64,000 bases of DNA, from positions 1-64,000 of the IMG/VR virus record IMGVR_UViG_3300042988_000341. One strand, written 5' to 3'. Source of the DNA: a virus. Shown one piece after another: positions 2-54,936 of this stretch (positions within the stretch are counted from its first letter, which is position 1; each line of letters begins with the position of its first letter). Both the position numbers and the translations under genes were made by a program. The notes under the pieces were generated by a model. That model did no database searches. It was not told the origin of the DNA and saw only the letters and a program-made list of their open reading frames with translations.

Positions 2-142
2 AATGGCTACCCGCTTAGTGCTTTAAGAAAAGCACTAAAATCTAACGGGGTAGTCAAATCAACATCAAAGAGGCTCTCCAAGGTAGAAGGTTGGTTAATA
101 CGCTATTTGGATAGTTTAGATAGCGCGGTAGATGTCGAGTAG
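2..142 (+). CDS. Possible 3' end of an unidentified gene (partial)
   Basis: The plus strand is open from the left edge to a TAG at 140-142, giving 46 residues of a C-terminus rich in Lys, Ser and Leu (it contains SALRKALKSN and LIRYLDSLDS). It converges on the gp47 gene and overlaps its last 27 bases. No family is recognised. The window cuts off the start, so the only support is an open frame with a protein-like composition. Chance openness over 46 codons is quite possible. The minus strand of the same stretch carries no comparable open frame. Confidence 0.3.
   Translation, partial: NGYPLSALRKALKSNGVVKSTSKRLSKVEGWLIRYLDSLDSAVDVE
7..53. repeat. Inverted repeat / possible hairpin
   Basis: Bases 17-24 (AGTGCTTT) and 29-36 (AAAGCACT) form a perfect 8-bp stem around a 4-base loop. 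The flanks CTAC (7-10) and GTAG (50-53) could pair outside it. It lies beyond the 3' end of gp47 and could end minus-strand transcription, but no T-run follows the stem in either direction, so a standard terminator is not shown. It also falls inside the possible partial gene at 2-142. Confidence 0.35.
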
Positions 143-1132
143 TAACTTTTTGTCAAATGCTCCCTCCTGGAGTTCATCGATTTGTTTCTGAATGATAGCA
201 TCGACTGATTCAAACTCAGTATTAGCGTAGTCAGTGCTATCAGTCTCTAAGTCTGTCTTCATGGGAATCAAAGTCATTTCGCGTAATCCGAATTGAGGCA
301 CTAATGTCTCTCGCAAAAATGCGCTCTCTTCGTAGCTCACCTCGATATCTAAGTTAACTTTAACATAACTGCCAGGAACAAGCAACTTTTCTGGTTCTTC
401 AAGCATCTGTGACAAATTGTAGATGCGATATTTTGGAGCTTGAGGCCAAATGTGGTACACCGGCTCTTCGTCCCATTCGAGTACCATCATGCCGCGATTG
501 TCGTCCCCCACATCCGAGAAGTTGTGCGGGAACGCATTGCCAATGTACGAGACATTGCCCTTGTGCTGGCGTTTGTGGAAGTGACCACTAAACACACGGT
601 CAAACTTTTTCAAGTGAGTTGTTTGTAATTCGCCATGGTCTGGCATTTCAATCATAGCATTCAAAATGAAGTGTGGTAGTTCAAAGTGACCAAACAGGTA
701 CTTGCCACTTTTCTGTTCAAGTTGCCGCCAATCTTCGCCAACTAACCAAGGAGCAATGACCACATTGCCCTGTTCGAACCAACCATCAACCACGGTTACA
801 TTCGGCAGATGCTTAGCCCACTCAACACTATGAACATCACGCTTGTCGCGGAAGAACAAGTCGTGATTACCGGCGATAAAGTACACATGATCAAACGCCT
901 TACTCAAACGCTCTAGCGCACTAAGGCCAAAGTGTAGCGTTTGAATATTGATAGCAGCGCGATTGTGATTCCAATCACCCAGGAAGAAGCAAGTCTCACA
1001 GCCCTCCTTCTTAGCATTGGCAATGAACCAATCAATGAAGTTGCTACAATCAGTATTGTGTTGTAAGGAGTTCGACTTCAACCCCCAATGGATGTCGGTG
1101 AAAACTGCTGCTTTTTTGAATAAGTTGCTCAT
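116..1132 (-). CDS. 47: gp47-like recombination nuclease subunit (SbcD/Mre11 family)
   Basis: Calcineurin-like metallophosphoesterase of 338 residues, close to the length of T4 gp47. Metal-binding motifs run in order: DIH (13-15), GDWNH (52-56), GNHD (88-91), GHF (148-150) and GHFH (183-186). With gp46 (SbcC/Rad50 type) this family resects DNA ends for phage recombination and replication. A gp46 partner is not in the window. In T4 it lies beside gp47, so it would be expected just left of position 1, yet no minus-strand frame is open across 1-115. The start follows a well-formed sigma70-type promoter by a 29-base leader with no clear ribosome binding site. Confidence 0.93.
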   Translation of the reverse strand: MSNLFKKAAVFTDIHWGLKSNSLQHNTDCSNFIDWFIANAKKEGCETCFFLGDWNHNRAAINIQTLHFGLSALERLSKAFDHVYFIAGNHDLFFRDKRDVHSVEWAKHLPNVTVVDGWFEQGNVVIAPWLVGEDWRQLEQKSGKYLFGHFELPHFILNAMIEMPDHGELQTTHLKKFDRVFSGHFHKRQHKGNVSYIGNAFPHNFSDVGDDNRGMMVLEWDEEPVYHIWPQAPKYRIYNLSQMLEEPEKLLVPGSYVKVNLDIEVSYEESAFLRETLVPQFGLREMTLIPMKTDLETDSTDYANTEFESVDAIIQKQIDELQEGAFDKKLLLDIYRAI

Positions 1133-1221: not shown

Positions 1222-2145
1222 TTAGTCGTTTCTTCGCATCTCTCTAGCATATTCGGATTGAAATTGCCGCGTGAATGATGGGGCGAGACCCGCAGATTCC
1301 ATGATGTCGTCTCTGATACTTTGACTTTTCTTTTCAGTATTGAGCACACGACAGAATGAGTTGTTGAGTACAGCGGTAAAGTACGCAAATGGATTGTTTG
1401 ACTTTGCTTCATTGAAGCGCAGTCCAACATAGGTAAGTTGGAGCACAGCACTACCGCGCATTTCATCGTTATACGAGTAGCCACGCCAGTTCCATTTTGT
1501 GCCATACTTCTCGCATAACTTCAAGTACATACGAGCAAGTGTATTGGTAATCTGGCCTTTGTCTCGTGCAAACTCGCCAGTCTTCATGTCACCTTCCCAA
1601 TGTGACTTGCCTACGCAGACCATACTGCCAACCGAATTCATTTTGAAGTGCTGAAATGGCGGGAAGTTCACGCGAATGTGGACCATGTCGCCCAATTCCG
1701 CCGCTGCTGGTAACGCTTCTTCCAACTCGGCAAACAAATCTTCACCGTCATCGTCGAACTGGATAATATCCTTAGCACTTTTCTTTTTTGTGACTTTCTT
1801 TGGGGCTTTCGGCGCTACTGGAATATGATCCCATGTCATCACACGGAAGATCAAGTCGGTGTCAGGGATGGTAGCAGGGTCAGTGGTGCCCTTGGTCAAT
1901 CCCAGCTCAAGATCGGTGCGTAGTGCCCGAGCTACTTTGGCTGCCTGAATAGTTTCAGGACGACTAGCATATTCTAAATTCACTTCTAAGTCGCTATTAT
2001 CTAAGTAATCAACGATGAAGTCATACTGATGATACTCGGGCTTGGTATAAGAGCAGTAAGTGTTCTTACTCTTATGAATTTCGACTAAAATGTCTTTGTT
2101 GTTGAGGTAGTTCTTGGGTTTTGTTGGCGTTATTGTTGTAGTCAT
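1222..2145 (-). CDS. 55: Late-transcription sigma factor (T4 gp55 family)
   Basis: Directs host RNA polymerase to phage late promoters. The C-terminal half carries the region that marks gp55 relatives in marine T4-like phages: WRGYSYNDEMRG, then RFNEAKSNNPFAYFT, then an EKK segment. An acidic stretch (IIQFDDDGEDLFAELEE) lies in the middle. The open frame continues to 2211, but I choose the ATG at 2145 (MTTTITPTK, 307 residues). A GGAAC element lies about 9 bases before that ATG, and the sigma70-type promoter at 2156-2183 lies inside the longer version. This protein should recognise the ATAAATA-type octamers found across the window. Its own upstream region contains one facing it. Confidence 0.9.
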   Translation of the reverse strand: MTTTITPTKPKNYLNNKDILVEIHKSKNTYCSYTKPEYHQYDFIVDYLDNSDLEVNLEYASRPETIQAAKVARALRTDLELGLTKGTTDPATIPDTDLIFRVMTWDHIPVAPKAPKKVTKKKSAKDIIQFDDDGEDLFAELEEALPAAAELGDMVHIRVNFPPFQHFKMNSVGSMVCVGKSHWEGDMKTGEFARDKGQITNTLARMYLKLCEKYGTKWNWRGYSYNDEMRGSAVLQLTYVGLRFNEAKSNNPFAYFTAVLNNSFCRVLNTEKKSQSIRDDIMESAGLAPSFTRQFQSEYAREMRRND

Positions 2146-2155
2146 AGATAGTTCC

Positions 2156-2183
2156 AGTATAGCATAGAAGCGAGTATTGTCAA
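2156..2183 (-). promoter_or_regulatory. Sigma70-type promoter for gp55
   Basis: On the minus strand TTGACA (2183-2178) and TATACT (2161-2156) have a 16-base spacer, 11 bases from the chosen gp55 start codon. This would let host polymerase make gp55 before late transcription starts. Confidence 0.75.
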
Positions 2184-2228: not shown

Positions 2229-2246
2229 TATTTATGCTGATAAATA
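2229..2246. promoter_or_regulatory. Palindromic, probably bidirectional late promoter
   Basis: TATTTAT (2229-2235) and ATAAATA (2240-2246) are perfect inverted copies around GCTG. The plus strand therefore reads GATAAATA toward the tail gene at 2268, and the minus strand reads CATAAATA toward gp55. The T4 late consensus recognised by gp55 is TATAAATA. The plus octamer recurs at 10353, 14036, 32304 and 35044. Confidence 0.7.
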
Positions 2247-2267: not shown

Positions 2268-3595
2268 ATGGCAGCATCATCAACTACGGTATCTAACGAA
2301 GATCCAGAAGTAGCAGCACGAGCGGCAAGACAAGCTGAGATGGACGCACAAATTGCTGCGGTCAAGGCAGCACAAGACGCTAATGCTCCTCCAAAAGATC
2401 CAGCTGTATTAGCACAAGAAGCAAAGAATGCAGCCGATATAGCAGCACTAGAAGCTACGAGAGCTAGCACTCAACCACAACCATCTCAAAGTGAGATGAT
2501 TGCTGCTTTAAAAGCAGAGCAAGACAAAATCAACGCGGCGAATGGAGTCAAGCCAACAACTATTACTGACGAAGAAGCGGCGGCAGTTCAGGCAGCCGCC
2601 GCAGCGCAGGGCCCGATTATAGTTCCGCTATCACAAGTCAACAAATCAACAGTTGTACCCGATGATGACCCTCGAGCAGTAGCACTAAAAACAGCGCAAG
2701 CAAAAACTGCTGCTGACTTAGCTGCTTCTGGTAAAGGGAAAGTAAATACGGAAGCAAACGAAGTTGTCACTACCGCACCTAAGCCGCCATCAGTGAAATA
2801 TCCGGTAGCTCCAGACTGGCGTTTCAGAGTGTCGCTTGCTCCTAACGCAGATTATTTCTACAATGCCGCTGATGCCGGCATCTTAGCACCACTCAAATCG
2901 ACAAAAGGCGTGATTTTCCCGTATACTCCAACAGTATCAGTATCGTATGTTGCTAAGTACGACACACAGACACCAACGCACAGTAACTTTTCAATCAACA
3001 ACTATCAGCATAGTTCAGTAGAGCAAGTCACTGTCACTGGAGACTTCACCGCGCAAGACATCCAAGAAGCAAACTACTTACTTGCTACAATTCACTTCTT
3101 TAAGAGCGCTACTAAGATGTTCTACGGTAAAGACAAAACCCCAGCCCGTGGCGTACCACCACCGCTGCTGTACTTGTCTGGCTTCGGTCAGTATCAGTTC
3201 GACAATCATCCTGTCGTACTGACTAACTTCACATACACTCTACCAGTAGATGTTGATTATATCAACGCTTACCCCAATGGCACAAAAGTCGGCGTCAACG
3301 GCGCTCAGCTAGCAGCATTCAATCAACAAAAGAAGACAGGTGACATCAGAGCGTTCATCGAGCGATTGAAGGCCGCCGTCACTAAAGGCAGTAAGAAGGG
3401 CGGAGGTGCTGAGGGAGCTGCGCCGACACTCTCGCAATCGTTGACCCGTGTGCCCACTAAGATTAGTATTTCTCTTACATTTCAACCCATCGTTACTCGC
3501 AATGCGATAAGTAACGAGTTCAGTCTCAAAGACTACGCTAGTGGCAAATTACTACGCGGCAGTCAAAACAAAAATACAGGCGGAGGTATCTGGTA
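2268..3595 (+). CDS. Tail-tube cap/initiator-like baseplate protein (gp48/gp54-like candidate)
   Basis: 442 residues. Residues 1-165 are low-complexity, Ala/Gln/Lys-rich and probably helical or disordered. The folded part begins near VKYPVAPDWRFRVSLAP and includes GVIFPYTPTVSVSY, a TGDFTAQD segment followed by IHFFKSATKMFYGKD, and PPPLLYLSGFGQYQFDNHPV. The order of elements (DFTxxD, a helix with FF...FYGK, then LxGFGxxxFDxHP) resembles T4 gp48, which sits at the tube-baseplate junction. I infer the role from this and from its place before gp53; gp54 is equally possible. It follows the late promoter at 2239-2246, and the next gene overlaps it by one base. Confidence 0.55.
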
Positions 3596-3895
3596 ATGGG
3601 CTACTCAGCATCAAGTCCGTATCACACGAGTAAAATCGTCAACGGCAAGTTTTTAGATGTAATGATCAATCGCCCTATTCCAGGCGACGGTGGTGATTAT
3701 TACTGGACAATCGAGCCCGCGTACAATCATCGTCCTGATTTACTAGCTAGTCATCTTTACGATGACAGTAAATTGTGGTGGGTGTTCGCTCAGCGAAATC
3801 CTAATACGCTGAAAGACCCTCTTGGTGACTTCACTACGGGTACGCAAATCTACATACCGAATGTTGATACATTAAAAGCAACGCTAGGATTGTAA
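3596..3895 (+). CDS. 53: Baseplate wedge protein gp53 (short, LysM-like)
   Basis: 99 residues, about half the length of T4 gp53 (196). The diagnostic segment RPDLLASHLYDDSKLWWVFAQ, continuing with NPN and DPLGDFTTGTQIYIPN, matches the LysM-like core in which a short helix pair is followed by an 'L-WW-' strand and a 'G-IYIP' strand. In T4 gp53 joins neighbouring wedges in the baseplate. The start codon overlaps the previous stop, and the next gene begins three bases after this stop, so expression is coupled within the baseplate operon. Confidence 0.85.
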   Translation: MGYSASSPYHTSKIVNGKFLDVMINRPIPGDGGDYYWTIEPAYNHRPDLLASHLYDDSKLWWVFAQRNPNTLKDPLGDFTTGTQIYIPNVDTLKATLGL

Positions 3896-3898
3896 GAG

Positions 3899-6661
3899 AT
3901 GACATCATCTGAATTTAGACAAGCGCTTAGTGACTATCAAACACTAACGGCAAAATCAAGAGCTGCTGATAATAGTGATGCTGGTATCCTTGCTCAACTG
4001 AAGGAAGTACTATCTAGACTTCAAACTGCCGACAGTGAAGGATACGAAGGAGCCTCGTCCGCCGCCAGTGATGTGAACTCATACATATCACTAATTCAGT
4101 CAAAGTTGGACACTAATGCTGCAGCTGCTACCGCAGCAGCCAAGAAAACAGCCGATGATGTAGCCGCAAACAAAACAAATGTAGCAGAGAACAAAAAAAC
4201 AGAAGATGCTACCACTAGTGCTACCACAGCATCAACTGCGGGGCAAGCAAGCGGAGTTACGCCAAAAGCAACAACACCGGCCAGCACCGCCAAACAATCG
4301 ACGACTGCTGGCGCAGACTACACTGGTCCGCAAATCCCTGGCGTGAGAATGATCAACCCACTTAGTCAGTTCAGTAGCTACACATACTCTCTTGTGTTGT
4401 ACATGATGACTCCGGAAGCATTCACGAACTTCACTCTTGCCGGTGGCTCAATGTCTGGCATCAAGGGCAAGGGCAAAGGCGTGTACATCGTAGCACAAAG
4501 CGGCGGCATCAACGGCGATATTGAAGATCGAGCAATCACGTTCTCTGGAAAACTGGGCGATGGAGAAGCTGGTCTAGACTACTTCATCGATGATCTCACG
4601 ATAGTTAACATCATGCCAGCCGGCGGCGGTGATGGCGCCACTGCTAGTACTGAATTCAAATTCAAGATCATTCAGCCTACCGGATTCAGCTTCGTGCAGG
4701 ACATAGGCAAAACTAGTCGAGCGATTAATCTCGAAAGTAAAATCACAACAAATACCACAATCAATCCACTTGATCAATTCTATGTTCTAGGCATCAAATT
4801 CTACGGCTACGATGTCAACGGCACAGTAATGTCCGCGACAAGTCCGGAGGTGGCTGGATACGACAATGGCGGCAGCGACGGGGACAAGAATGCGGTAATT
4901 CAACGATACTTCGGCATCAAAATCAACGGCATGAAGTTCAAGCTAGATAACAAAGTCACTCACTACGACATGACAGCAGTACCGGCTAGTGATACATTTG
5001 CATATGGCACAATAAACAGTACGATCAAAAAAGATTTCACAATTGCAGCAGGCACAGTAGCGGAAGCTCTTGGCGCAGTGACTGGCGCGGGTATCAGAGG
5101 CTTGTCTGAGGTACTCAACAACGAGGGCAAAGATCAAAAAGATCGCGGCGTAATCGATACGCCGACAAAGTACACATTCGAGTTCTATGATGAAGATGGC
5201 AAAAAAGTGTCGCCTACTGAGAGCGTGATCGGCAAGAGTGGTCTAGTTGACAAGACGATAGCAACAGCAGACAATGCTCCTGTGTCAACTGCTACTGACT
5301 TGAGTAAAGTAACCATCGCTGACAGTTACAAAGCTGGAAGTATCCCCAAAGGCAAGAAAAGTATCTCTGTGCCTGCTGGCACAAGTCTAGTAAGCGTAGT
5401 TGATAACATCATCGTCAAAAGTAATTTTATTAGTGATGCTTTAACAAAAACAATCAGTCAGGACGCAGAAGCGCAATCTGTCAAAAAATCACCCACCGCC
5501 ACACTACAGTGGTACTCATTATCGCCGTACGCTGTGCCACGCGCCCGAGAAAACGGCAACTGGGTCTGTGACCTCACATACCAGATTCGTCCATTCTCTG
5601 TGCCGTACCTACGTAGTGACATCGTGGGTGCTACTAGCAAATATACTGGCCCGTACAAATTCTATCACTATTACTTTACGGGTCAAAACAGCGAAGTATT
5701 AGAATACTCACAACAGTTTGATAACTTGTTCTTCATGTTAGCTGACATGCCTACTAACCCAGACGCTGATCCGGTTGACAAGCCAAAAGACAACACACCT
5801 AGAGCTGTATCAAACGCAGTGGAGGGCTCTAACAATTCAGGCAACAATAACAAAGCAGGTCAACTAAACGACATGGTCAAAGCTCAGTTGTACAGTCCAG
5901 CAGATACAAACAAAGCAAAGTTAAAAATTCTAGGCGATCCTGATTACTTAGCTACTAACATCGGGGTGACATATCAACCAGGCACAAAGTATTTCAACAA
6001 AGATAGAAGCATCAACATCAACAGTGGCCAAGTGTTCATTCAGTTGAACTTCAATACGGCTACTGATTATGGCATAAATGACGCCGGCGATCAAACAGGA
6101 ACTGGCCTACTCAATGTTAGTGACAAAGTTCAATTTTACGAATCAACGTCAGCAAAAGACGCCGGTATAGACGGGATTGTCTTCAATGTTATTAGAGTGG
6201 TAAGTACTCTATCTAAAGGAGTATTTCTACAAACGCTTGAATGTAAAGTGCCGCCCCTTGAAGACCTTATTGGACCAGGCAACGCAAAATCATCACTGGA
6301 TGCCAGCGGTAGAATGAATGCGGAGTCTGATCCTCGAGTATCTGCCGCAGCATCTCAATCAGTGCCAGTCAACAATGCCTCGTCAGCCACAGCAGCGAAT
6401 GGACCGGCATCAGGCGGGAATGCTAGTGAAGCAAAGACAGCAGTAGACACAAGAACTACTAATACTCCACCGACCACAGTGACTAAGAAAGAAGACACCA
6501 CCAGTGATGCGAAGGACGCTGGTAGTACCGCGAATACTAGTTCATCAAAGCAAGCAACTTCTAGTCCTGTCAATAACACACTACAGGGTTCAACGGTACT
6601 AGATGATACCGTGACCGCAAAAACGCCACCACAGAGTGAAGATACCAACCAACGAGCATAA
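3899..6661 (+). CDS. Large baseplate hub protein (possible gp27 equivalent)
   Basis: 920 residues. Residues 1-145 are Ala/Thr/Lys-rich and probably coiled. A folded region starts at PGVRMINPLSQFSSYTYSL and reaches about residue 790. It includes QWYSLSPYAVPRAR and YHYYFTGQNSEVLEYSQQFDN, which look like tube-domain and carbohydrate-module strands. The last 130 residues are again Ser/Thr/Ala-rich and disordered. It lies directly before the gp5-like spike, where T4-like phages often carry the hub protein gp27. I infer hub function mainly from position and overall character. T4 gp27 is only 391 residues, so the low-complexity ends are extra. A dedicated structural protein of this phage clade is the alternative. 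Confidence 0.5.
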   Translation: MTSSEFRQALSDYQTLTAKSRAADNSDAGILAQLKEVLSRLQTADSEGYEGASSAASDVNSYISLIQSKLDTNAAAATAAAKKTADDVAANKTNVAENKKTEDATTSATTASTAGQASGVTPKATTPASTAKQSTTAGADYTGPQIPGVRMINPLSQFSSYTYSLVLYMMTPEAFTNFTLAGGSMSGIKGKGKGVYIVAQSGGINGDIEDRAITFSGKLGDGEAGLDYFIDDLTIVNIMPAGGGDGATASTEFKFKIIQPTGFSFVQDIGKTSRAINLESKITTNTTINPLDQFYVLGIKFYGYDVNGTVMSATSPEVAGYDNGGSDGDKNAVIQRYFGIKINGMKFKLDNKVTHYDMTAVPASDTFAYGTINSTIKKDFTIAAGTVAEALGAVTGAGIRGLSEVLNNEGKDQKDRGVIDTPTKYTFEFYDEDGKKVSPTESVIGKSGLVDKTIATADNAPVSTATDLSKVTIADSYKAGSIPKGKKSISVPAGTSLVSVVDNIIVKSNFISDALTKTISQDAEAQSVKKSPTATLQWYSLSPYAVPRARENGNWVCDLTYQIRPFSVPYLRSDIVGATSKYTGPYKFYHYYFTGQNSEVLEYSQQFDNLFFMLADMPTNPDADPVDKPKDNTPRAVSNAVEGSNNSGNNNKAGQLNDMVKAQLYSPADTNKAKLKILGDPDYLATNIGVTYQPGTKYFNKDRSININSGQVFIQLNFNTATDYGINDAGDQTGTGLLNVSDKVQFYESTSAKDAGIDGIVFNVIRVVSTLSKGVFLQTLECKVPPLEDLIGPGNAKSSLDASGRMNAESDPRVSAAASQSVPVNNASSATAANGPASGGNASEAKTAVDTRTTNTPPTTVTKKEDTTSDAKDAGSTANTSSSKQATSSPVNNTLQGSTVLDDTVTAKTPPQSEDTNQRA

Positions 6662-6663
6662 TC

Positions 6664-8118
6664 ATGGCAACTAACGCACAACATAAGAGTCAAAAACCAA
6701 CCAAAGCATATGCCGAATCAGGAGCCGGAAATAAATCAGGCCCGTTCATCGGCGTAGTAAAGAATAATGTGGACAAAACTCGCAGCGGCAAGATCGAAGT
6801 CTATATCGCGGCATTCGGTGGCAGTGATCCTGATTCATCCAACAACTGGACGCCCGTTAGTTATATGAGTCCATTCATCGGCATCTCTAGTTCCGGTAAA
6901 AATCCAAAATCTGGTCCAGATAAATCGGGAGATGGCGGCTATTTGGGCAACCCAAATAGTTACGGATTCTGGGCTTCAAGTCCAGACATTGGAACAGAAG
7001 TAGTGTGTATCTTCATCAACGGTAACAAGGGTCAAGGTTACTATATCGGATGTGTGCCGAAAGTCGGCTTACTCCAGATGGTCCCGGCGATCGGAGCCTC
7101 ATCAAAAGTAAAACCAAACGATGGTGAAGCTGGCGCATACGCGGGAGCCAATCGACTACCGACAAGTGAAATTAATACAGCTAACCCTAGCGTAAGAAAC
7201 AGTAGTCAGCCTTATAACGAAACTAAGCCCGTTCATAGCTACCAAGCAAGCATCTTAGCACAGCAAGGTCTAATCAGAGATGACATCAGAGGCGTCATTG
7301 GAAGCAGCGCTCAGCGCGAATCACCTAGTAGAGTATTCGGTATCTCAACGCCTGGCGGCGCGATCTATGATGGCGGCTACAACGCAGCGACATTGGGCAC
7401 AGCAGTGAAGAACGGCGTGGACCCCAGTAAGCTCAAGCAACTAGGCAGAACGGGCGGTCATACATTCGTTATGGACGACGGCTCATTACAGGGAAAAGAT
7501 CAGCACATCAGACTACGAACAGCGGGCGGACATCAAATCACAATGAGTGATAGCGGTCAAGCTCTGTTCATTACACACGCTAACGGTCAGAGTTGGGTAG
7601 AGTTGGGCAAAGAGGGCACGGTAGATATCTACTCAACTAACTCATTCAATGTAAGAACTCAGGGAGATATAAACTTTCACGCTGATAGAGATATCAACAT
7701 GCACGCTGGTAGAAATATGAATGTCAACGCCGAGTCTATTAATCACGAGAGTAAAAAAGATTATTCAATAAGAGCAGGCGGCGCATTTGCAGGCTATACT
7801 ACGGGTTCATTCTCATTCAAAGCAGATGCTAGTATTGCTATGACCGCGGGAGGCGGTGCTGGAATAAAATCAGGCGGTGTCTTGTCACTGAAGGGCGACA
7901 AATTGAACTTGAATTCAGATAGTCCATCAGAAGCTCAGGCGGTAGCAGCCATGTCAAAGACTAATCACACTGATACACTTTTTAGTGAATCAAAAGGATG
8001 GCTATCAGCATCTCCTAATCTAGAGAGCATCGCGACTAGAGTACCAACGCATCAACCGTACATTGGCAGCGGCACCGGACTTGATATACCATTCAACAAC
8101 GTAGCAGGAGGAAGCTAA
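6664..8118 (+). CDS. 5: Baseplate spike protein gp5/VgrG-like, lacking lysozyme domain
   Basis: 484 residues. An N-terminal OB-fold-like domain (GPFIGVVKNNVDKTRSGKI, then GTEVVCIFINGN and GYYIGCVP) is followed by a linker. Next comes GGHTFVMDDG...IRLRTAGGHQI, typical of gp5/VgrG hub-spike proteins. The C-terminus is a repetitive beta-helix: NFHADRDINMHAGRNMNVNAE, then more strands with alternating small residues. In T4 gp5 a lysozyme domain sits between the OB-fold and the needle. Here no catalytic lysozyme segment is visible, so the spike should pierce the membrane without its own murein hydrolase. It starts two bases after the hub gene ends. Confidence 0.85.
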   Translation: MATNAQHKSQKPTKAYAESGAGNKSGPFIGVVKNNVDKTRSGKIEVYIAAFGGSDPDSSNNWTPVSYMSPFIGISSSGKNPKSGPDKSGDGGYLGNPNSYGFWASSPDIGTEVVCIFINGNKGQGYYIGCVPKVGLLQMVPAIGASSKVKPNDGEAGAYAGANRLPTSEINTANPSVRNSSQPYNETKPVHSYQASILAQQGLIRDDIRGVIGSSAQRESPSRVFGISTPGGAIYDGGYNAATLGTAVKNGVDPSKLKQLGRTGGHTFVMDDGSLQGKDQHIRLRTAGGHQITMSDSGQALFITHANGQSWVELGKEGTVDIYSTNSFNVRTQGDINFHADRDINMHAGRNMNVNAESINHESKKDYSIRAGGAFAGYTTGSFSFKADASIAMTAGGGAGIKSGGVLSLKGDKLNLNSDSPSEAQAVAAMSKTNHTDTLFSESKGWLSASPNLESIATRVPTHQPYIGSGTGLDIPFNNVAGGS

Positions 8119-14035: not shown

Positions 14036-14043
14036 GATAAATA
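14036..14043 (+). promoter_or_regulatory. Late promoter of the giant structural gene
   Basis: GATAAATA lies 27 bases before the ATG at 14071. An AGGTAA ribosome-binding-like element lies between them. Confidence 0.65.
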
Positions 14044-14070: not shown

Positions 14071-17000
14071 ATGGTGAACCAAGTCAGAACCCTCGATTTT
14101 CTTCCAGAGATTTTTCAAACTGAAACTAACGATCAGTTTCTATCATCAACGCTGGATGTTCTAACCAAACAGCCGAACATGACCCGTGTCCAGGGTTACA
14201 TCGGTAACAAATATGGCTATGCTATCGAGGCCGGTGACAATTACGTCACAGAGACTACACAGAGTCGCAGTAATTATCAATTAGATCCTGCTGTTGTTTT
14301 TCTAAAAGAAGACACACAGATTGCTCAAGATTTTATCGACTATCCCGGCATCATTGCTGCTCTTACTAACGGCGGCGGCGTAACATCAAATCATAACAAA
14401 CTATTCAGCAACACTTTTTACAGTTGGGACAGTTTCGCGGATATCGATAAACTGGTAAACTATGCACAATATTACTGGTTACCATTAGGGCCTGACGCTA
14501 TTCTAATCTATGAAGATGTCGATGTCACTGATATTTTAGGCAAAACTAACTACACGGCGCCAAATGGCCTAGCATTCGTCAATGGTTTAAAAGTAAACTT
14601 CTCTGGTACAGTCACTCCGTCTAATTACGCTAACGTAGATTACTACGTAGAAGGCGTTGGTACATCAATCACTTTAGTGCCAGCAAGCGAACTGCTATGT
14701 ACGGAAGTTACTGGTGGCGGCATCTATACACCGTGGGACAATGATCCGTATGATACTGTTGACTGGAGCATTTCTCTCTACGTGCCTATTCAGCCTGACT
14801 ACATCGTAATCAATAGAAGTAGCAGAGATAGAAACGCATGGAGTAGAGGTAATCGCTGGTTCCATCAAGGCGTAATCGACGCTACTGTCAAATACAATGG
14901 CGATGTAACTAACAATCAGTACAACACTCAAACCCGCGCTCAGCGCCCTATTGTAGAATTTCAAGGCAATATGTCGTTGTATAACAGCGGCAAGTCATAT
15001 GCTGCCATTGTAGATTTTATCGACACTCGTACAAAAGATGCGCTATCAACAGTGGCCGGTAGTAACGGCATTCAAGTTAAGACAGACGTTAATCGTACTA
15101 GTAATCGAGTATCAACGGAAGGTATTGTCGTCAATGACACTACTAATTTAGTAGAAGGTATGACAGTAACATTCTCTGGCAACTTGCCGATTGAGTTGGA
15201 TGCCACTAAAGAATACGTAATTCGCTCAATCGATAACGTTCTATCTACCATCACTGTTAGTTTGCCACCAACTGTATTAAACGGCACTACTACATATCAC
15301 CCAGTAATCAAAGCTACGGTGGGTTCATATGACATGAAGGTAACTGGCATCTCTGAGATCGGTCTACTAAACGATACTACCGTCGTATTCGCTAACGATA
15401 ATGACATCAACGTTCGTAAAACTGTGTACAAAGTAACAACAGTAGAAGCGGGCGCAGATGCTAAAAAAATCATCGCATTAACACCTCTGCCTAACGTAAC
15501 AGTAGAGACTGGCAGTCAAATTTATGTTGCTGCTGGTCCAGGAGATTATCTAGGCCAGGCATGGCGCTTTGAGATTGACACCACTGGCGTAATTCGTCCG
15601 GCGGGCGATCAAGGCTGGACTCAGAGTCAAAAGAAAATCGCTATTAATCAAAGCCCGTTGTTCGACATCGTTGACGATAATGAAATCAGTTTCTCTGATA
15701 CTTCATTCTACATGAACTCATCATTTGCGGGCTCTAAATTGTTCAGCTACACTATTGGCACTGGCACTAACGACAGCGTGTTAGGATTTGCGACAACATA
15801 CAGTAGTCCAGCCAATACTGGTGACTTCTTGTTCACTGTTCACATGAATAGCGACAAGTTCACTTACACCAATGATAGTACCGGTTCAACGATTACAAAG
15901 ATGATCAGTGATGGTTACGCCCAGTATCGCCCAACGACAACTGCTACAGTAAAACGCACCGGTTGGGTAAAAGCAGTAGCTCCGAGTGTACAATATCAAG
16001 TATTCATATTTGACGTGACTGATGTCAACAAGAGCGGTCTTGTGTGTGATGTGGCAATGAGTTCAGAAGCGCAGACTCTATGGGCTCCTATAAAAATATA
16101 CAAGAATGGTGAGTTCATTGATAGCTCATACTACAAGACGACAGTTGATACTACTATCGGCACTACAATAGTAACATTCAATGATGGTCTATCAGTGGGC
16201 GATCAAGTATCAGTACAACTTATTAGTGATCAGGTAAGTAAGACTGCGTACTACCAGATTCCAAGTAATTTACAAAGTAACCCATTCAATACACAAATCA
16301 GTAGTGTTGCTGCTGGTGACTTGAAGAATTACTACAACAGCATCTTTGGTAATGCTCCGAACGCAGCTGGTGTAGTATTCGGTCAGAATAACTTGGGCAA
16401 CTTAGGCGACCTAGCAAAGTACGGCAACACAATTATTCAGAATAGTGCTAGTCTGTTATTACCTGGCGTATTCTTACGTAAGTCATCGTACAACATTCAG
16501 GATGCTCTACAGTACAACTGTGACGAGTACATGGATTATAAGCATACGTTGCTACAACTAGCGTACACTGGTGATTACAGTGTATATCAAACAGTTGACA
16601 CCATCCTAGATGACATCATCTATCAGATTTCTAGTGCTAAGAACGAAAGTGACTCTTTCTATTGGAGTGACATGATCGTTAGCGGTAGCCCATTTAGTGT
16701 CAATACATACTCATTTGGTGCGGCGGTGACGGTTGCTACATTTGCTACTAGTAGAGTTTATGACTTTGCTAATGCTAACTACTACGGTCTAGCCGTGTAT
16801 ATTACGGAAACAGTAGATGGCGTTACTACGACATCTCAGCTAATCAGAGGCGTGGATTACTTTCCAAGTACCACTGAACCTAGTGTCACTATTAAACGCT
16901 CAATATCAACTAGCACAACAATCACAGTCAAAGAATACAATCAGACGTGGGGTAGTTATATCCCCAACACCCCAACAAAACTAGGTTTGTACCCAGCAAC

Positions 17001-20000
17001 TATACCGCATGTCAAGCTAGATGCTACGTACACTCAACCGACTTACTTCATCGTCGGTCACGACGGCAGTCACAACAGATTGTATGGCACATATACTGAC
17101 GGTAAGTTAGATGACTTCCGCGATCTAGCATTGCTCGAATTCGAAACTAGAATTTACAACAACTTAAAAGTCAGCGGAGATATTCCACTACAATACACTG
17201 ATGTGTTTCCTGGTCAGTGGCGTAAAACTGATTATAGTTGGGAAGAAATCTTACCAACATATACTTCTAACTTCTTGAACTGGGTAGGCAAAAATAAACT
17301 TGGTGACTATCGTCGTCAAGTATTCTCGCACACTAATAGCTTCTCATTTAACTACAACAAAGCAACAAATACAGCCGACAGCACTCTATTAAAACAAGGT
17401 AACTGGCGCGGCATCTACAACTGGTTCTACGACACTAGCAACCCAGCGGATGCTCCATGGGAGATGTTAGGCTTTACTACTAAACCTCAATGGTGGGACA
17501 GTCGTTACGGTAGTGCTCCGTACACAACAGGCAACATGTTAATGTGGCAAGACATTGCTGATGGACGAGTGTGGAACAACGGTACACCGTACATTGACAG
17601 CACTCGTGTTCGTCCTGGACTCCTAAAGACACTACCGGTGGATGATGCTGGCGCATTAATAGATCCTCTAGTAAAGATTATTAAAAACTACGACAGTCTA
17701 ACGTTCGAACGTGGATGGGTAGCCGGCGATCAAGGTCCAACTGAAACTAGTTACTTGAAGAGTAGTAGTTGGCCATTCGACTTGATGAAGTTGATGAGTG
17801 TTTTAAAACCAGCTGACTTCTATAACTTGAATGCTGACCGCGACATGTATAAGTACGACTCAGACTTAGATCAGTATCTATTCAACGGTAGATATCATTT
17901 AGACCCAGCGGATCTAATAATCTACGGCAACGGCACTGCTAAGCACAGTTACATCAACTGGGTAGTAGACTACATCAATCAAACTGGCACAGACGGCCAA
18001 GCATCAGTAGCAACTACGTTAAAGAACATCGATGTTCGTTTAACATACAAACTAGCTGGCTTTAGTGACAAGCAATATCTACGATTCTTAACAGAGAACA
18101 CTGCGCCTAGTGCTACGTCAAATAGCTTATTAATCCCAGATGACAGTTACTCAGTCTTGTTGTACGATAATGTACCTAGTGATAAAGTGACATACAGTAG
18201 TGTAATTATTCAAAAAACTGATAGAGGTTACACTGTTTGGGGTAACAGTATTACTAATCCGTACTTCAAAACAGTAGCGCCAAAAGTCGGACCATATCAG
18301 AAACTTACTTACGGTAATACAACCGTTCAACTATCAACGGTGTACGATGCTGCGTCATCAGTATCAATCGCTTACGGCACTGAGTTCTATACTATTCAGG
18401 GCGTTAGTGAGTTCTTACGCAACTATGGTCGTTGGTTAACTGAGCACGGTGTGGTATTTGAAAACTCACGCGACGATGCTCTAATCGACTGGACAGCTAT
18501 GATCGGCGAGTTCGTTAGTTGGGCTCAGCAAATGTGGGAGACTGGTAGTATCATTAGCTTGAACCCAAACGCTAAAGAATTCAAAATGTACAAATCAGGG
18601 TTGATCGTACAGCCTCTAACATTACACAAAGAAAACTTCATTCTCAATCAAAACTTGATTACCCTCAAGAGTCAGAACATGGCAGTGTTGAGAAACAACG
18701 AAGAGTTTAGTGTACGTGTGCTAAGCGACGGCGACACTATTGCGTACACTAATCTACACTTGAGTACTGTTGAACACGCTATTGTTTTCGACAATCAGAC
18801 AGTATTCGGTGATACTATTTACAATACAGACAGTGGTCTAAGACAAACTCGACTGGTCATGCAAGGCAAGAAAACTGCCGACTGGAGCGGCTACGTAAAC
18901 GCTGACGGTTTTATTCTCAACCAAGCTGACATCAGTGAGTGGGACAACTCTACAAAGTATCCTAAAGGTCAGATTGTTCTGTACAAAAATAAGTACTGGT
19001 TTGCTAAAGAACTAATCCAGCCATCAGATACGTTTGACTACACTCTTTGGACTGAGAGTAATTACGAGAACATCAAACAAGGCTTGTTGCCAAATCCTAG
19101 TACTGCTGCGTATGAGAGTAGTCAACTCTACGATATTCAACAAGCAAACTTAGAACAAGATGAAGATTTACTAGCATTTGGCTTGATAGGTTTCCGTCCA
19201 CGTGATTACATGTCGTTAGCATCGCTATCAGACGTTACGCAAATTAATGTTTACAAAAACATGATTAGCAGTAAGGGTACTAACAAGTCAACACTAGCGT
19301 TCAAGGGAGCAACACCGTTACAGGGCGATCTTGATTATGACGTTCGTGAAAACTGGGCAATCAAAACTAGCAACTTCGGTAGTGTACTAAACAGTAACTT
19401 CGTAGAAACGCCACTATATCAAAATCTACTTACTGGTAACCCAGCGATCATCGGCTTTGGTGACGCGATGGCAAGTACAGTAGATTTCTCGACAATAGGT
19501 TTCAAATCTGGAGTACAGCAAAAAGTTGCTATCGGTGACATCGCATTCAAGGGCAAAAAGAAGAACAAAGGCGGGCAAGACTACAAGTATCAGAACGATT
19601 TGATCAACTACGGACGCAGTCCAGATAACGCAAACTTCCTACCATCATACAGCTTGACGTATGTTGAAGAACGTGGCCTACCAACAGCCGGTTATGTCAA
19701 CATCGATGACGTTGACTACTATGCTTACAACTTATCTGATTTAAACTCTACTGCTACAAACATCTCTGATTTGTATCGCGGTGATGTAGTGTGGGTAGCA
19801 AACTACAACAGTAAGTGGGATGTGTTCACGCCAGTAAGCATTGGCACAGTACTAAGTTCAGTTAGAAACAACTTGAACGACACTGTAACATTGACATTCT
19901 CTGAACCGCATGGTCTACTAGAAGATGATCCGTTTGTAGTTGTTGATTTTGATGATCGTGTAAACGGTTACTACACAGCAACTACCATCGTTGATTTACG

Positions 20001-23000
20001 TTCAGTGGTTATCGATTTAACGCTACCTAAGACAGTTGTAACACTAACTGGCACTGGCATCACATTCAAGTTGTACAGCGTTCGTGTAGAGCAAGCAAGT
20101 AACTTGAGCTTATACACAGAAACAGTGCCGTTTGCGGAATTCTCTACTCGCTTGAGTTGGGTTGACGAAGACACTAGTGGTGACTGGTCCGTACTCGGCG
20201 CTTCGCCTGTGTACGAGAAGCAAACAATAAGCATTGACGCTACACTAACAAAAGCTAGTACTACTGTTGCGGTTACATCTAAGACGGGCGTCATTGTTGG
20301 TCAGCTAGTATCTGGTACCGGTATCGTTAACGGAACTACAGTATCTGCCATCAGCGCAACAACCAATACTATCACTATATCAGTGGCACCAACCGCATCC
20401 AGTGACACTACACTGACATTTGAAAATACACGTACTGGTTACGGCAAGTCAGTGGCATACACTAGTGCTATCGGTGAACTAGTTGTCGCTAATAATGGAC
20501 TGTACAAAAACGGCTCTCTACTACAAACTATCAACGGCATCACCTCAGTAGTAGCATCAGGCACAACAGCGATTTGCAGTAGTCCGTCTACTCTCTATGT
20601 ATTTGACTTCAACTTGAATACAGTATCATTATCTACTCTTTACACTGACGAAACTTACATCATTGTATCGTTGGGCACCATGACACAGAAAGAGTGGAAC
20701 GAACTTGCTAACAGAGATGTAGCGTACAACGTTAATGATACTACAACATACAAAACGTACAAAGTTGGCGATGAAATTATTCCAAAAACAAGTTCATCTA
20801 CGCTATCAGGTACAGTGCGACTAAAGAAACTAGTAGTCAAATCATTGACAGTAGCAAACAACGGTGTCATCACATTAAGTAGAGATACAAACTGGTTGTA
20901 TGTTGCTAACAATACTACACTAACTACATACTTCAAAGTAGGAACTACTTACATCAATACAGGAACTACTACTGTAGGCAGCGAAATCACAAGTCTAGCA
21001 ACAGCTAAAGACGGCAGTAAAGTAATCGTAGGCGCCAGCAATCAAGCATTGTTAGTCGGTGACGAGACATACTCGGAAGGTGGCGTAGTCTACGTTTATG
21101 ACAGAGCAAGCCGCTCATACCTACAAGATGTATTGACTAACAAAGTATTTACAGTATCGTCAGCAATAACTGGCGAGGTAGCTCAAGTTTACATCAACGC
21201 TACTCTACAAGAAGCTAGTAGTTACAGTGTTGTTGGTTCAACAGTTACGTTTACCGTAGCGCCGCCAGTAGGCACAACCATCTACATCAACTACGGCGCT
21301 CTAACAAAGCAGCAGACAATTACAAGTAGCAAGCCGCACATCGGCGCAAACTTCGGTCGCTCCGTCGCCACAAACAGATACGGCGCAGAAATTACTGTCG
21401 GCGCACCATACGAACTAGCAACAGTCAATGAAGTTAAGAACGTTGAAGGCGCAGTATATCGCTTCACTAATGCCGGTCAACGCTACGGCACTGTAACTGC
21501 TACAGTAAGTGAGAGTACGGATGTGGCCGGTACATTGTACATTGACGGGTTCGAAGTAAACTACAGCACTAGTAGCAAGTTAGCAAACCCAACACTACCA
21601 GCATCAGCAACTAATCCTGAGATGCCTAGTAGCATCACTGACAATAAGCGTAACCGCGTGGCGTATCAAATCAACTCCATCGAGCCAACTAACGTTGTTG
21701 CTACATACGGCGACACCGCAACTATGACCCTGTCAAACAAAGTCGGCACTGCTGCTGTACCTAATGATCAGATTGACATTGTTGGTGCCACAGAAGCAGC
21801 GCTATCTGACATCGGCATCACCCCATACATCAAGACACAAGTCATCAACGACAAGAACTTAGATACAAATAGTCAATTCGGCTGGACAGTAGCAATGAAT
21901 CAAGATGACAGTACTAGAGACAGTATCATCGTCAGTGCTCGTTCAGTAGATACGTTCAGTGAAACTACATTCGACTTCACCAATGACTTAAACGCCATGA
22001 ACGATTGTATCTTCGACAATGGCGCTACAACATTCATCGATAAGTTTCCGTTCACCGGCGGCGTATATCAATACGACTACTTGTCTTCAAATAGTGAGAC
22101 AATTGATGCTCCAGGCAAGTACACATTCGGTCAATACTGTATCATCCCAACTACAGACAGTGAACGAAGTCTACAATCAACAGCCCCTCATTACGGCAGT
22201 GCGCTATCATTCACGGACGGCGTAATCACTGTCGGTAGCCCAGACTGGTACAAATCAGGCACAGGCCGTGTCACTACTTTCAAAATCGATAGCTCATCAA
22301 CAAAGACAAGTAGTTGGTACACAGACAAGCAACCATTACCGCGTGTGGATGTCAATCGTCTAAGTACGATCTCTATCTACGATACAGAAACTAACAAAAC
22401 ACTAGATAGACTAGACTACATCGATCCTGCTCAGGGAAAGATGCTGTCCGCCGTTGAAACGAACATTGACATCATTGGTCTTGTCGATCCCGCAGTGTAC
22501 TCAACGGGTACAGTATGGGGAGCGAACCGCGTCGGAACAACATGGTTAGACACATCAAACATTCGCTTGATGAACTACAATCAACCAGATGTGACTTACA
22601 ACTCTCGTTACTTTGGTAGAGCATTCCCTGGCAGTACTGCGGACATCTACACTTGGATTAGTAGCTCAGTGCTACCAGTTGACTACAGTGGTAGCGGCTA
22701 TACATCCAACTTCAATGACTATGTAAGTGCCACAATCATTGATAAGTCTAGTAATACTCTAACCACTGAGTACTATTTCTGGGTAAAAGGCTACGATCAA
22801 GTTCCTGTAGGTAAGACATTAAGTCCATCAGTACTCAGTCAATACATTTTGAACCCAGCTAACAGTGGGGTAGCATTCTTGGGAGCGCTAACTACAAACA
22901 CAGTAGCTCTATTCAATGCTCAAGATAGTATTCAAAGTCACTCAAGTGCCCTACATTTAGGTTATAGTGTCGGTAACAACAGCGACCGTGGTCATCAAGA

Positions 23001-26000
23001 CTGGAGTCTAATTCAGGACGGCAATGATGAGTCATTCTTGGCCGGAGTACCATCTACGGTAGATCAAGTGCCATTCGGTATGTATTTGAAATACGTCACT
23101 AGTTTTATGGGCGCTGATCTATCAGGTCTGTCTGTGCCAGATACAACTTTACCCGAACTCGTTAGATATGGCACTTCATTCCGCCCTCGTCAAAGTATGT
23201 TTGTTGATAGAGCATTAGCCTTGAAGAATTTCATTCAGTACGCTAACGACACCATGGCAAAGTACACTATTACTGAGACTCGTGGTATGTACTTATTAAA
23301 TCAATCGCTATACATCAACGGCGAAGTATCAGCGATCTCTTCTACTAATATTTACATCACTACGCAAGAAGGCAAAACTGTTACAGGACTATACGAAGGT
23401 CAAGCAGTGACGGTTAAAGGTACTTCATACGGTGGCATAGAAGCGAATAAGTCACACTACATCACAAAGATAGGCACAGATGACTACGGTCAATATATTA
23501 CAGTAAGTGACTCTACTAATGGGTCTACTATAGGATTGACTGAGAACGTTGGCACAATGAGTATCAAGATATACGATACTACAGATTACTGGACAAACAC
23601 AACTTGGTGGGCAACCGGTTATAGTTCAAGCACGAAAGTAACTCTAGAAGTTCAATCATACACTGATCTAATGACTATTGGTCAAGGAGACCTCGTCGCT
23701 AGCTCTTACGGTAATGTAACGCTAACAGAGGGACTAGTGGCCCGTGTCATCAAAAATGGCCAGGGCGTAAATGAATATTACTCATATTCATCTACTGGCT
23801 GGACTAGAGTAGGTCTACAGCGCGGCACAATTCAAATCAAATCTGAATTGTACACCACGACACAGCCTATCCCATCAATGGAAATCTACCACATCATTCG
23901 TTGGATCACTGAACAACTATATGTAAACGAACTCTTAATCGAGAACAATCAAAGTCTAATGATGATGTTTAACTTGATTCAAAGCGAGGGTCAACAGCAG
24001 CAGAACTATCTACCATGGTTGAATAAGACCAGTTTGATAGATGTTAAGCACACAATTCGTCAACTAAAGCCCTACAAACAATACAAGCGTGACACTCGCG
24101 AGTTAGTCGAAGGCTACTTAAAAGAAGTAAAACCATATCACGTATTCATTAAAGACTTCTCATTCACCTATGATGGCATTGAAGAATACAACGGCGTGTT
24201 CACTGACTTTGACTTACCAGCACAGTACAACTCATCTGTTGGTAAATTCCTAAGCCCTCAATTAGTATCTCAAGTCACGACTTCGGGACAATACTTATCA
24301 ACTGATAGTATCTGGAAAGATGTATCGTATAGTGACTGGTACAATCATTTCGGCCTAACGATTAGCAACCAGCAAGTCAGTACTATCTTAGTGACTGCCC
24401 TTACTAATGATATTAGTAATACTAGTACATCTATTGTCGTTGATGAAGCTACTGTTCTTCCAGTTCGTGGAACAATTTTAATCGGCAACGAAGAAATTAG
24501 TTACACTATCTTAAATAGAAAAACAAACACTATCAGTGGTCTAACACGAGGCATTAACTTCCAGCAGCCACAGAGCTATACAGCAGGCACTAATGTATAT
24601 CTATTACCTGAACCAGTAATGGTCATGGATAGCGGTCGTGGCTATACAAGTCTTCCTGTTATTTCGGCTTACTTCGACACTACTGAATATCCATACGGTC
24701 CAAGAACGCCAGCAGTATTCACTCCGGTGCTATCAGAGACAAAGCTAGTTAGCGTGACACTGACTAATGCCGGCGACGGATACCCCGTACTGCCTGAGAT
24801 TAGAGTAGGTGCTAGTAGCATTAGTGGCTTAATCTACACAAATCAAATCGACAGTACACTAAATCAAATTAGTATCGCGGGTCACCCGTTTGTTGATGGT
24901 GATTGCGTTGTTGTCAGTGATATTGAAGATGATAGCACGACAAAGAGTCTAAAGAATAATCAGTATTATTACGTTAAGAGCATTGATGAAAACACCATCT
25001 CTCTATATAGAACATACAAAGAGGCAATCAACGGTTATACTACAGTCGAAACATTCCTATCATTCAGTGATACAGCAAATAATATCATTACGTTCGACAG
25101 CGCGACGAATATAGATAAACTACCATTTGTCACTGGCGACAAAATCAAGATCGTCTACGCATCAAAGCCAGCCTCTCCTGAATACTACTACGTAGAGAAT
25201 TTAGGAATAGATGGCGTACTTAACGGTGCTCCTAAGATAGCTATCTATTCTACTAAAGAAAAGGCCATGACCGGCTATTCTAACGACAGAATTACACCAT
25301 CCGGTTCAGGCTCAATATCTAATACGCCAAGAACAGATTCTACTAGAATCGCTCTATTAGATAATGTAACTGCCACAATCGCAGTCACTGCCCGCGTAAG
25401 TATCTTCACTGATAATCTACCAGTAAGAGAGATGAAAGTTAATATGAAGTTCGATAGAACATCGTATCTAAGCTACGCTAAAGACTGGAATGCTGAGACT
25501 GGACTATTCAGTGATGCTGGTTGGGGCACGGGCCTCTGGGGTCAGGGAATTTATTATTCAAAGAATGATCTAGCAGTATATGACGGCGTTCTATATCGCG
25601 CCAATAGAAATCTAAACACAACTGAACTCGCCGACACCTTTAATCTAGCATACTGGACAGAAGTAGATAGTGGAGACGGCGAACTAACAGCCGCCGATAG
25701 AATCGCTGGTTTCTATAAACCAACTGGTAGTATGGCTGGCTTTACAATGACCGATATGAGCCAGTTAATGACCGGCGTAACAAACCCATATCCAGTTGTT
25801 AAGAACTTACCATTTAGTGATACTAAGACGTATGCCTTCTTGGCAGGTCAAGTAGATTTAGATACTGATACTATTCAACTAAGAGAAACTGCTCCAGAAG
25901 TAGTTACTTACGTCGAGCGCATTACTGGAACTAGTAACAATGAGATTAGTTTAACCGCATTACCTGCTGCCACCTCAGTAGACAAGACTCTGTTCACACT

Positions 26001-29000
26001 TAAATCTACAGACAATGTGCGTATTGGCGACAGAATTAAATTTGACGGAGCATTATTTGGCAACATCGTTAGTAACGGTATTGATTCAGAAGTAACTCTG
26101 AAAAATAAGAACTATGTTGTATCGTTTATTAACTCATCAAAAGATGTAATCAGCATCAGTGACACGTTCACTAATGGTTCTATCGGTAATAGTATCTCGT
26201 TGACTACAAGTAATGGGTACATGACAATTAAGCCTGTGGAATACACTACTAGTAACATCTATGCTAACGGTATTGTATCATTGAATACTACTGACTTTGT
26301 GTCAGTTGGTGACTCAGTACGCTTTAGTAATGTATCAGTAACGGTTGATGTTAATCGAACATATTCTAGTACTAACCCTGCTACGCCAAGTCAATTACTA
26401 GTTAGCTCTACGGCCAATATTGCTCCAGGCATGAAGATTGAGTTTAGTGGCGATGTCAGCGCAGCAAACATTAGTAATGTTACTCCTTACTACGTAAAAC
26501 AAGTTATTGATACCAATAATATCACAATATCGGATGCGTTGATGGGACCAGTTCACCCATTGACTTCTAGTGTGTTAGCGGCAACTGCTAAAGTCACTGG
26601 CTCATTTGGTAAGTATGACGTACAGACTGCTACTAAAGTGTCAGCAAACGGATACATCACTGTGTCTAATACTGCTTCATATGCTAATGGCATGAACGTA
26701 TGGTTTACTGGCACAAATGCTTCACCTGTATTCGGAGGATTAAATACAGCAAACGGCGGCACTAACTTACAGAGCGCTGACTATACTTTAACAGTACAGT
26801 CGGCCACAGAAATTACATTGAGTTATTCAGGAACACCGATAACAGTATTGACTGCTGGAACCGGTAAGATGACTGCCGTGGTTGAAGCTAATGGTATCGT
26901 CGCTGACACTAACTATTTCGTTACGAGTGTCGCTAACAGTAATATAACTCTAAGTACGACACTTGGTGGCACAAGCATTACTACTATGCCTATCTCTGGA
27001 ACAATGTTAGCTGATAGTAGTCAGTTCTATGTAACAGAAGTTACCGCGGATACTAACAATCTAACACTCAATTCTATTGACGCTGTTAAATCATTATCTA
27101 TTGGTGATGAAATTTACTTTACCGGTAACGCTATCGGTGGCTTAGTTCCGTTACAAACATACACAGTTAAATCATTAGACTATGTAACTAACAAAGTTAC
27201 TCTAACAGATACTACTGGTTTATTTGGAGACACCCCATCATCTACGGAACGTATGTCATTATGGCGCGTCAAGTCATCTGTTAAGACATCATACGCTAAT
27301 GGCGATATGGTCAAAGTAGTATACACATTCCCAACAAGCAAAACGACTGAATACTATTATGTCACTGTCATTGACGATACTACTATATCTCTACGCACCA
27401 CTGACAATTCTATCGTTACTATTCCAGACGGCGCCAGCGGCACAGTTGTTAAACCACAAACGATTGTTGCTTTAACTGATCCTATCTCTTATTCTGTGGG
27501 CACGGCGTTACAGATGTTGTTCGAGCAATCTAGTAATCCAACTAATTTTGGGTTAACTAACTATCGTACTTACTGGGTAGGGATCATCGATAGTCGTCGT
27601 GCCGGAGTATATTTAAGTAAGGATGATGCCGAGAATGATACGAACAGAATTCCTCTTCTAAGTCAAAACGGCGGCCAATTCTTATATGGTAGTAACTACG
27701 ATACTATCATCAAGGCACCTAACGGCACTGCTGCCACCCAATATGACATCGTTGGCGCACCCTTCGAAAGTGGATATTCTCCAGAAGAACTAGTAGCAGG
27801 CATTGTTACTGATGGTATCAACTTCACAGTAACTACTCGTCCTGGCTCAACATGGGATCCTCTTTCGATTGCTAGTGGTACTAACTCGTCAAACTTCGGC
27901 GGGACGGGCTTCAATATGGTCAGACTGATTAGACAAGCACCTTCTACTAGCTTATACTATTCAGATGGGTCAAAGATGTTCAGTGATTCTACTACGGGTA
28001 TTCAATTTAAGGATATCGTAGTTAATCCAATGTCTATATCTGTTTATGGCAACACTAGTATGCCTGACGGTAAAGACGGACAAACTAGATTGACGCCAGG
28101 TGATGATTACACAGTTGACTGGATCAACGAGGTAATATATGTAATTGGTAGTGCTGTTGCGGCGTACACCTCATTTGATCTTGTGATATACGAAGCGGGC
28201 AACGGAAGTCATCTAATTCGTAGCAGTAGTAAATACTTCCCTATAAAGAAAGTACAAGACAATAAAGATAAATCATCTGGTATTACATATCACAGCGAAA
28301 TACATTTGGACGTACCTTACTGTTACGTTGAAACGCCAAACGAAACTAACTATTGGCTATCTACGTTAGTATCAGTTGGTAGTATTACTACAGATATGAA
28401 GGCATTAACATATCTGACTAACACTACACATCCGGAATATAGTTCAAGTGGTCACTATACTATTGAGCCACTTCGACCATATGATCAAGTAAACGACCCA
28501 TACAATCCAGCAAAAATTGTATTCACCGAAGAATATGATAATGCCACTGATTACGCCTCATTTGTATTGACTACTAATGTGATTGGCATGTTCGTTGTTT
28601 CTACAGAAGACATCAATAGCAGTTACTACGTGGATGGTATCGAATACGTTGACTTTGTTGTACCGATCACGGATCTAGCATACGCTCGAAGTAAACTAGA
28701 CCTACAATTAAATGGCACTAATGTATCAAACTACACAGTAGTAAATCCAACCGATGTCGAACTAGCGTCCAATAAAGGTTTCGCCACAATTACATTTAAG
28801 TTAAGTGATCTATCCTTATATGATAACATCAAAGTAACTTACGGAAGTAATGGTGCTTCTACTCCGTTAACCCAGCGAGTAGCAAAGGCAGAAGGTCTAC
28901 CAAAGGACTTTATTGAGCCAGTGACAACTAAATTAGGCAGTGTCTCGATTACTAGTACAGGTGGAGTATTCTCATGTACATCATCGGTGACACTGAAGGT

Positions 29001-52819: not shown

Positions 52820-52838
52820 TATTTATATGGTGTAAATA
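52820..52838. promoter_or_regulatory. Divergent (bidirectional) late promoter
   Basis: Minus strand TATAAATA (52827-52820) faces the methyltransferase-like gene; plus strand TGTAAATA (52831-52838) faces the repeat protein at 52844. TATTTA and TAAATA are inverted copies. Both start codons lie within 6 bases of their octamers, so initiation at the usual spacing would be at or beside the ATG. Confidence 0.65.
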
Positions 52839-54903: not shown

Positions 54904-54936
54904 TATTTAGTTGTTCAAAATCTCTTTGTCTAAATA
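54904..54936. promoter_or_regulatory. Weak divergent pair of late octamer variants
   Basis: Minus ACTAAATA (54911-54904) faces hydroxylase copy 2; plus TCTAAATA (54929-54936) faces the gene at 54955. Both deviate from the GATAAATA used for the structural genes at the first two positions, so this is a tentative call. Confidence 0.35.

Follow-up and report, generated by a model that had tools for sequence, protein, structure and literature searches.

Why should a perfect inverted repeat lie between the gene for a late sigma factor and the tail genes? This locus stands near the start of the window that we analysed (64,000 nucleotides, the first bases of an incomplete virus record of 88,577 bases), and a preliminary description had read the repeat as a palindromic, bidirectional late promoter through which gp55 may amplify its own late transcription. 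The features on which the argument turns are as follows.

116 to 1132, minus strand: gene for a gp47-like (SbcD-like) nuclease (PHROG 100, E 2.8e-70), the next gene past gp55
1222 to 2145, minus strand: gene for gp55, the late sigma factor (PHROG 12791, annotated as a sigma factor for late transcription, E 2.4e-73; PHROG 234, E 1.3e-23)
2156 to 2183, minus strand: sigma70-type promoter of gp55, TTGACA (2183-2178), 16 nt, TATACT (2161-2156)
2177 to 2211: inverted repeat of 15 nt (87%) with TTGACA in each arm, within the predicted late gp55 leader
2229 to 2236, minus strand: putative gp55-directed late promoter element CATAAATA, from sequence; [AC]TAAATA in the same direction in 47 of 48 related loci
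2239 to 2246, plus strand: putative tail-directed late promoter element GATAAATA, from sequence; kept in 46 of 48 related loci
2268 to 3596, plus strand: virion structural gene heading the baseplate/tail cluster (PHROG 12050, E 3.6e-43)
3596 to 8118: baseplate genes, downstream of that virion gene

The repeat itself is as first described: positions 2229 to 2246 of the plus strand read TATTTATGCTGATAAATA, that is TATTTAT-GCTG-ATAAATA, with perfect 7-bp arms and a 4-bp spacer. It is the sole exact match within the 64-kb window, and none of 100 dinucleotide shuffles has one. It sits inside the 122-nt gap between the divergent gp55 and virion genes, with GATAAATA 21 nt ahead of the virion gene's ATG (2268) and CATAAATA (2236-2229) 83 nt ahead of the gp55 ATG (2145). 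If T4 spacing is assumed (PMC1524935), transcription would start near 2252 on the plus strand and near 2223 on the minus strand. The sigma70-type promoter that had been placed nearer to gp55 is there too: it has 11 of 12 consensus matches plus a TG extension, and by eye there are sigma70-like sites at comparable spots in relatives. A rightward sigma70-like site (TTGACA at 2205, CATATT; 10 of 12 matches) overlaps the palindrome; by eye, it has no clear counterpart in two relatives, L004 and L006.

By sequence and placement, both elements are T4-type late promoters. In T4 these consist of TATAAATA at -13 to -6, the first base being loose in relatives (PMC1524935; PMC2988020); GATAAATA and CATAAATA both conform to the T4-type word, (T/A/G)ATAAATA or CTAAATA. 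The position just upstream of a virion gene is repeated at other virion genes, and the phage has a gene for a gp55 family protein. A search for the sliding clamp gp45 (PF02916) gave no match in six records, but none in any control genome either. ATAAATA is not abundant in the window (10 found versus 17.6 expected), so its significance rests on placement and conservation. Across the whole record the word has 15 plus-strand and 3 minus-strand occurrences, often within GATAAATA and with a start codon shortly downstream; 8 of these 18 lie 8-60 nt before gene starts, the highest number for any of the 21 words with this letter composition. In eight records of the group, GATAAATA is present 210 times, versus 54 for the reversed control. 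Elements of this kind also stand ahead of an ORF of about 6,076 codons (window 14071-32301; GATAAATA at 14036) and, as AATAAATA, 18 nt upstream of a Nol-like carbamoyltransferase gene (window 50140-51603; PHROG 1601, E 9.8e-87).

Searching named phages at the nucleotide level around the site yielded no useful relatives; the comparison therefore draws on protein and viral-contig searches. Two viral-contig scans with gp55 returned about 90 loci, of which 48 non-redundant ones, this phage included, make up a main clade in which gp55 identity is 57% or more. Elements were scored between -145 and -60 relative to the gp55 start, with shuffles as the control. Bearing in mind that these loci share kinship, such that counts are not independent trials, the strict gp55-directed ATAAATA is present in 29 of 48 (2.5 expected; shuffle maximum 7) and is the commonest of 21 words of the same composition. 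The wider [AC]TAAATA, which was adopted after the alignments had been viewed and which agrees with the published Aeh1 motif, is directed at gp55 in 47 of 48 (3.9 expected; shuffle maximum 10) and at the tail genes in 46 of 48 (5.2 expected; shuffle maximum 11). The gp55-directed form is also found in 12 of 13 representatives below 75% gp55 identity. Comparison thus lends strong support to a late promoter in each direction, and to the suggestion that gp55 may feed its own late transcription.

Among the loci compared, only one clade of T4-like phages has the gp55-directed element. In a sister clade of 22 loci (gp55 identity mostly 45-50%, gap usually near 80 nt), the tail-directed element is present in 22 of 22 and the gp55-directed element in 0 of 22; the latter is also absent from the stretch examined in MIJ3, Atu_ph07, Phosso, RaK2, PBECO4, Hallingskeid, SCTP-2, Sf-FS3 and T4. 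Within the main clade, the gp55-directed half is, on sequence grounds, the weaker promoter: a G precedes 44 of 46 tail-directed sites and is missing from the gp55-directed copy, which in this phage is off-consensus (C precedes ATAAATA) and followed by GC-richer DNA, and about half of the relatives carry CTAAATA as the gp55-directed word. This weakness, together with the absence from the sister clade and the named phages, is what one would expect if the tail-directed promoter alone worked and AT-rich DNA had produced the opposing copy by chance. We consider that very improbable: chance does not readily deliver 47 of 48 loci, nor a site that survives both changes of geometry and the loss of its tail-gene neighbour.

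Those changes of geometry are instructive. Both elements are present in 45 loci, with offsets that cluster into three bands, namely 7 to 11 (back-to-back), -7 and -8 (face-to-face and abutting) and -17 to -23 (face-to-face and separated), plus one outlier at 33; the two elements overlap in none of the 45. The bands hold 43 loci, as compared to a mean of 11.5 (maximum 22) when positions are re-dealt, a contrast that is inflated by relatedness. On the gp55 tree, which is a quick tree with some weak forks, geometry changes at least 14 times, and presence of the gp55-directed site twice. With a spacer of 3 nt, the exact back-to-back pattern occurs nowhere in eight records. At two loci the neighbours have parted: in L061, an HNH-endonuclease gene lies between the tail gene and gp55, and there is a late element ahead of all three; in L008, the tail gene is downstream of gp55 on the same strand, and CTAAATA is still upstream of both. 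The L061 endonuclease gene (L061:3463-3885), which occupies the tail/gp55 gap, has its own TATTTAG/ATAAATA pair upstream.

A perfect inverted repeat between divergent genes could also be an operator, at which a symmetric DNA-binding protein would repress or activate both genes. That the palindrome should be such a site strikes us as extremely improbable: the half-sites stand in any of the three geometries above, each persists alone, and each half matches the late promoter element that the genome uses at other places. A conserved operator was accordingly rejected, as the symmetric arrangement is not kept among the loci. Persistence through changed geometry and lost adjacency argues instead for two independently selected promoters rather than one dimer-binding site; the conserved unit, as the alignments describe it, is a pair of independently kept promoters, of which the palindrome is only one lineage's arrangement. 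The original notion of a palindromic promoter is therefore upheld as to its two promoters and given up as to the palindrome, a geometry that relatives do not keep.

Whom does the leftward promoter serve? In this phage and in most relatives, gp55 and gp47 lie in that order on one strand, and the promoter might mainly supply gp47 and gp46 late in infection, with gp55 carried along. This we regard as distinctly unlikely, since in L008 gp47 lies on the opposite strand, away from gp55, and CTAAATA nevertheless remains upstream of gp55; moreover, gp47 in the present phage has a sigma70-like site of its own at 1190-1162.

The effect of the leftward transcript upon gp55 could also be the reverse of a boost. 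Its late start would lie upstream of the sigma70 promoter, and the predicted late leader of this phage folds strongly (z -4.9), with the start-codon region pairing with the leader; a long transcript might thus act as a brake, occluding the sigma70 promoter while its structured leader hides the gp55 start. We find this quite improbable as the purpose of the promoter, given relatives without a structured leader: their leaders have a mean z of -0.9, with 5 of 47 below -2, and their start-region pairing is 0.44 with the long leader versus 0.35 with the short one. A structured late leader was likewise set aside as a general regulator, being strong in this phage and not common to its relatives. In this phage, the modelled fold may hinder translation of the late message. 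The inverted repeat at 2177-2211 covers the gp55 -35 box, and its hairpin is possible only in the long late transcript. Dyads with arms of at least 5 near the gp55 -35 region are found in 35 of 48 relatives, versus 15 in shuffles; their positions and arms vary.

Opposed elements are not restricted to the gp55 junction. An exact TATTTAT-13 nt-ATAAATA is present at L002:6518-6544 (record 86518-86544), where it separates a minus-strand gene for an HNH-type endonuclease from a plus-strand virion structural gene. Late-like elements also oppose each other at three further divergent junctions (window 52820-52838 and 54904-54936; L001:4453-4480), the pairs being TATTTAT/GTAAATA, TATTTAG/CTAAATA and TATTTAG/ATAAATA. 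Opposed late promoters may thus be the rule wherever genes diverge in this phage.

We hypothesize, with a good deal of confidence in view of the conserved sequences, that the locus carries back-to-back late promoters read by the gp55-polymerase: rightward into the virion genes and, more weakly, leftward in a feedback upon gp55 and gp47. Transcription, the feedback loop and the competition between directions are what we infer from these elements, in the following steps. Host sigma70 polymerase would make the first gp55 from the TTGACA/TATACT promoter by the start codon, as the presence of that site suggests. The gp55-polymerase would then fire rightward into the virion and baseplate genes, and leftward into gp55 and then gp47, the leftward copy being presumed weaker because it is without the preceding G, is followed here by GC-richer DNA and is CTAAATA in about half of the relatives. 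By switching on its own late promoter, gp55 would secure a late-phase supply of itself, and probably of gp47 too; gp55 thus probably boosts its own production through positive feedback. With predicted starts about 29 bp apart, both promoters should not be occupied together: one polymerase at a time would be accommodated, and the two directions would compete.

That competition invites a further, speculative reading. In T4, the nicked strand sets the only orientation in which late promoters respond to the sliding clamp (PMC2988020), from which it follows that the polarity of replication could bias the choice of promoter. By this analogy the overlapping pair might be a replication-direction switch, in which the passing fork picks between late sigma and tails. 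We think it unlikely; were it true, the three geometries that recur would each resolve promoter competition in a different way. For the feedback promoter that we favour, the implication is that, throughout one clade of T4-like phages, gp55 appears to stand under its own late promoter, placed so near a tail promoter that competition between them is to be expected. The locus thereby offers feedback that can be put to the test, and the clade's promoter geometries a natural series for studying the choice of direction by a clamp-dependent polymerase.

Against this background, the locus resembles T4, with its gp55, gp33 and gp45 system, in its core word, of which the first base is loose, in the absence of a -35 box and in a position just upstream of virion genes. 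It differs from T4 in that the promoters form an opposed, overlapping pair with one member facing the gp55 gene; upstream of T4 gene 55, there is no such element in the stretch examined until far upstream, near I-TevII. Five T4-like genomes, when compared, were reported to have late promoters only 5' to genes orthologous to T4 late genes (PMC1524935). In the searchable literature, outside which most subscription papers lie, we came upon neither a described gene 55 late promoter nor late promoters that diverge and overlap in a T4-like phage. The Aeh1 late motif is CTAAATA (PMC1524935), and this word is also present, in both directions, in the present group; C is the rule in Aeh1, whereas a single clade here has both CTAAATA and ATAAATA. 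Feedback on a late sigma gene from a late promoter has been proposed by the authors for phage 7-11 (PMC8948821). That phage is phiEco32-like and its promoter is unrelated and bipartite; the part of the account available to us describes no overlapping divergent pair (PMC8948821). Finally, the bidirectional promoters of Escherichia coli are likewise opposed and overlapping, and there two polymerases exclude each other (PMC12825309). Those are sigma70 promoters whose -10 element is symmetric and shared, the starts usually lying 18, 10 or 23 bp apart (PMC12825309); no such shared -10 element is seen at the present locus, which, unlike them, has two separate 7-bp elements that are 4 bp apart, with predicted start distances near 29, 11 or 0 in its several arrangements.
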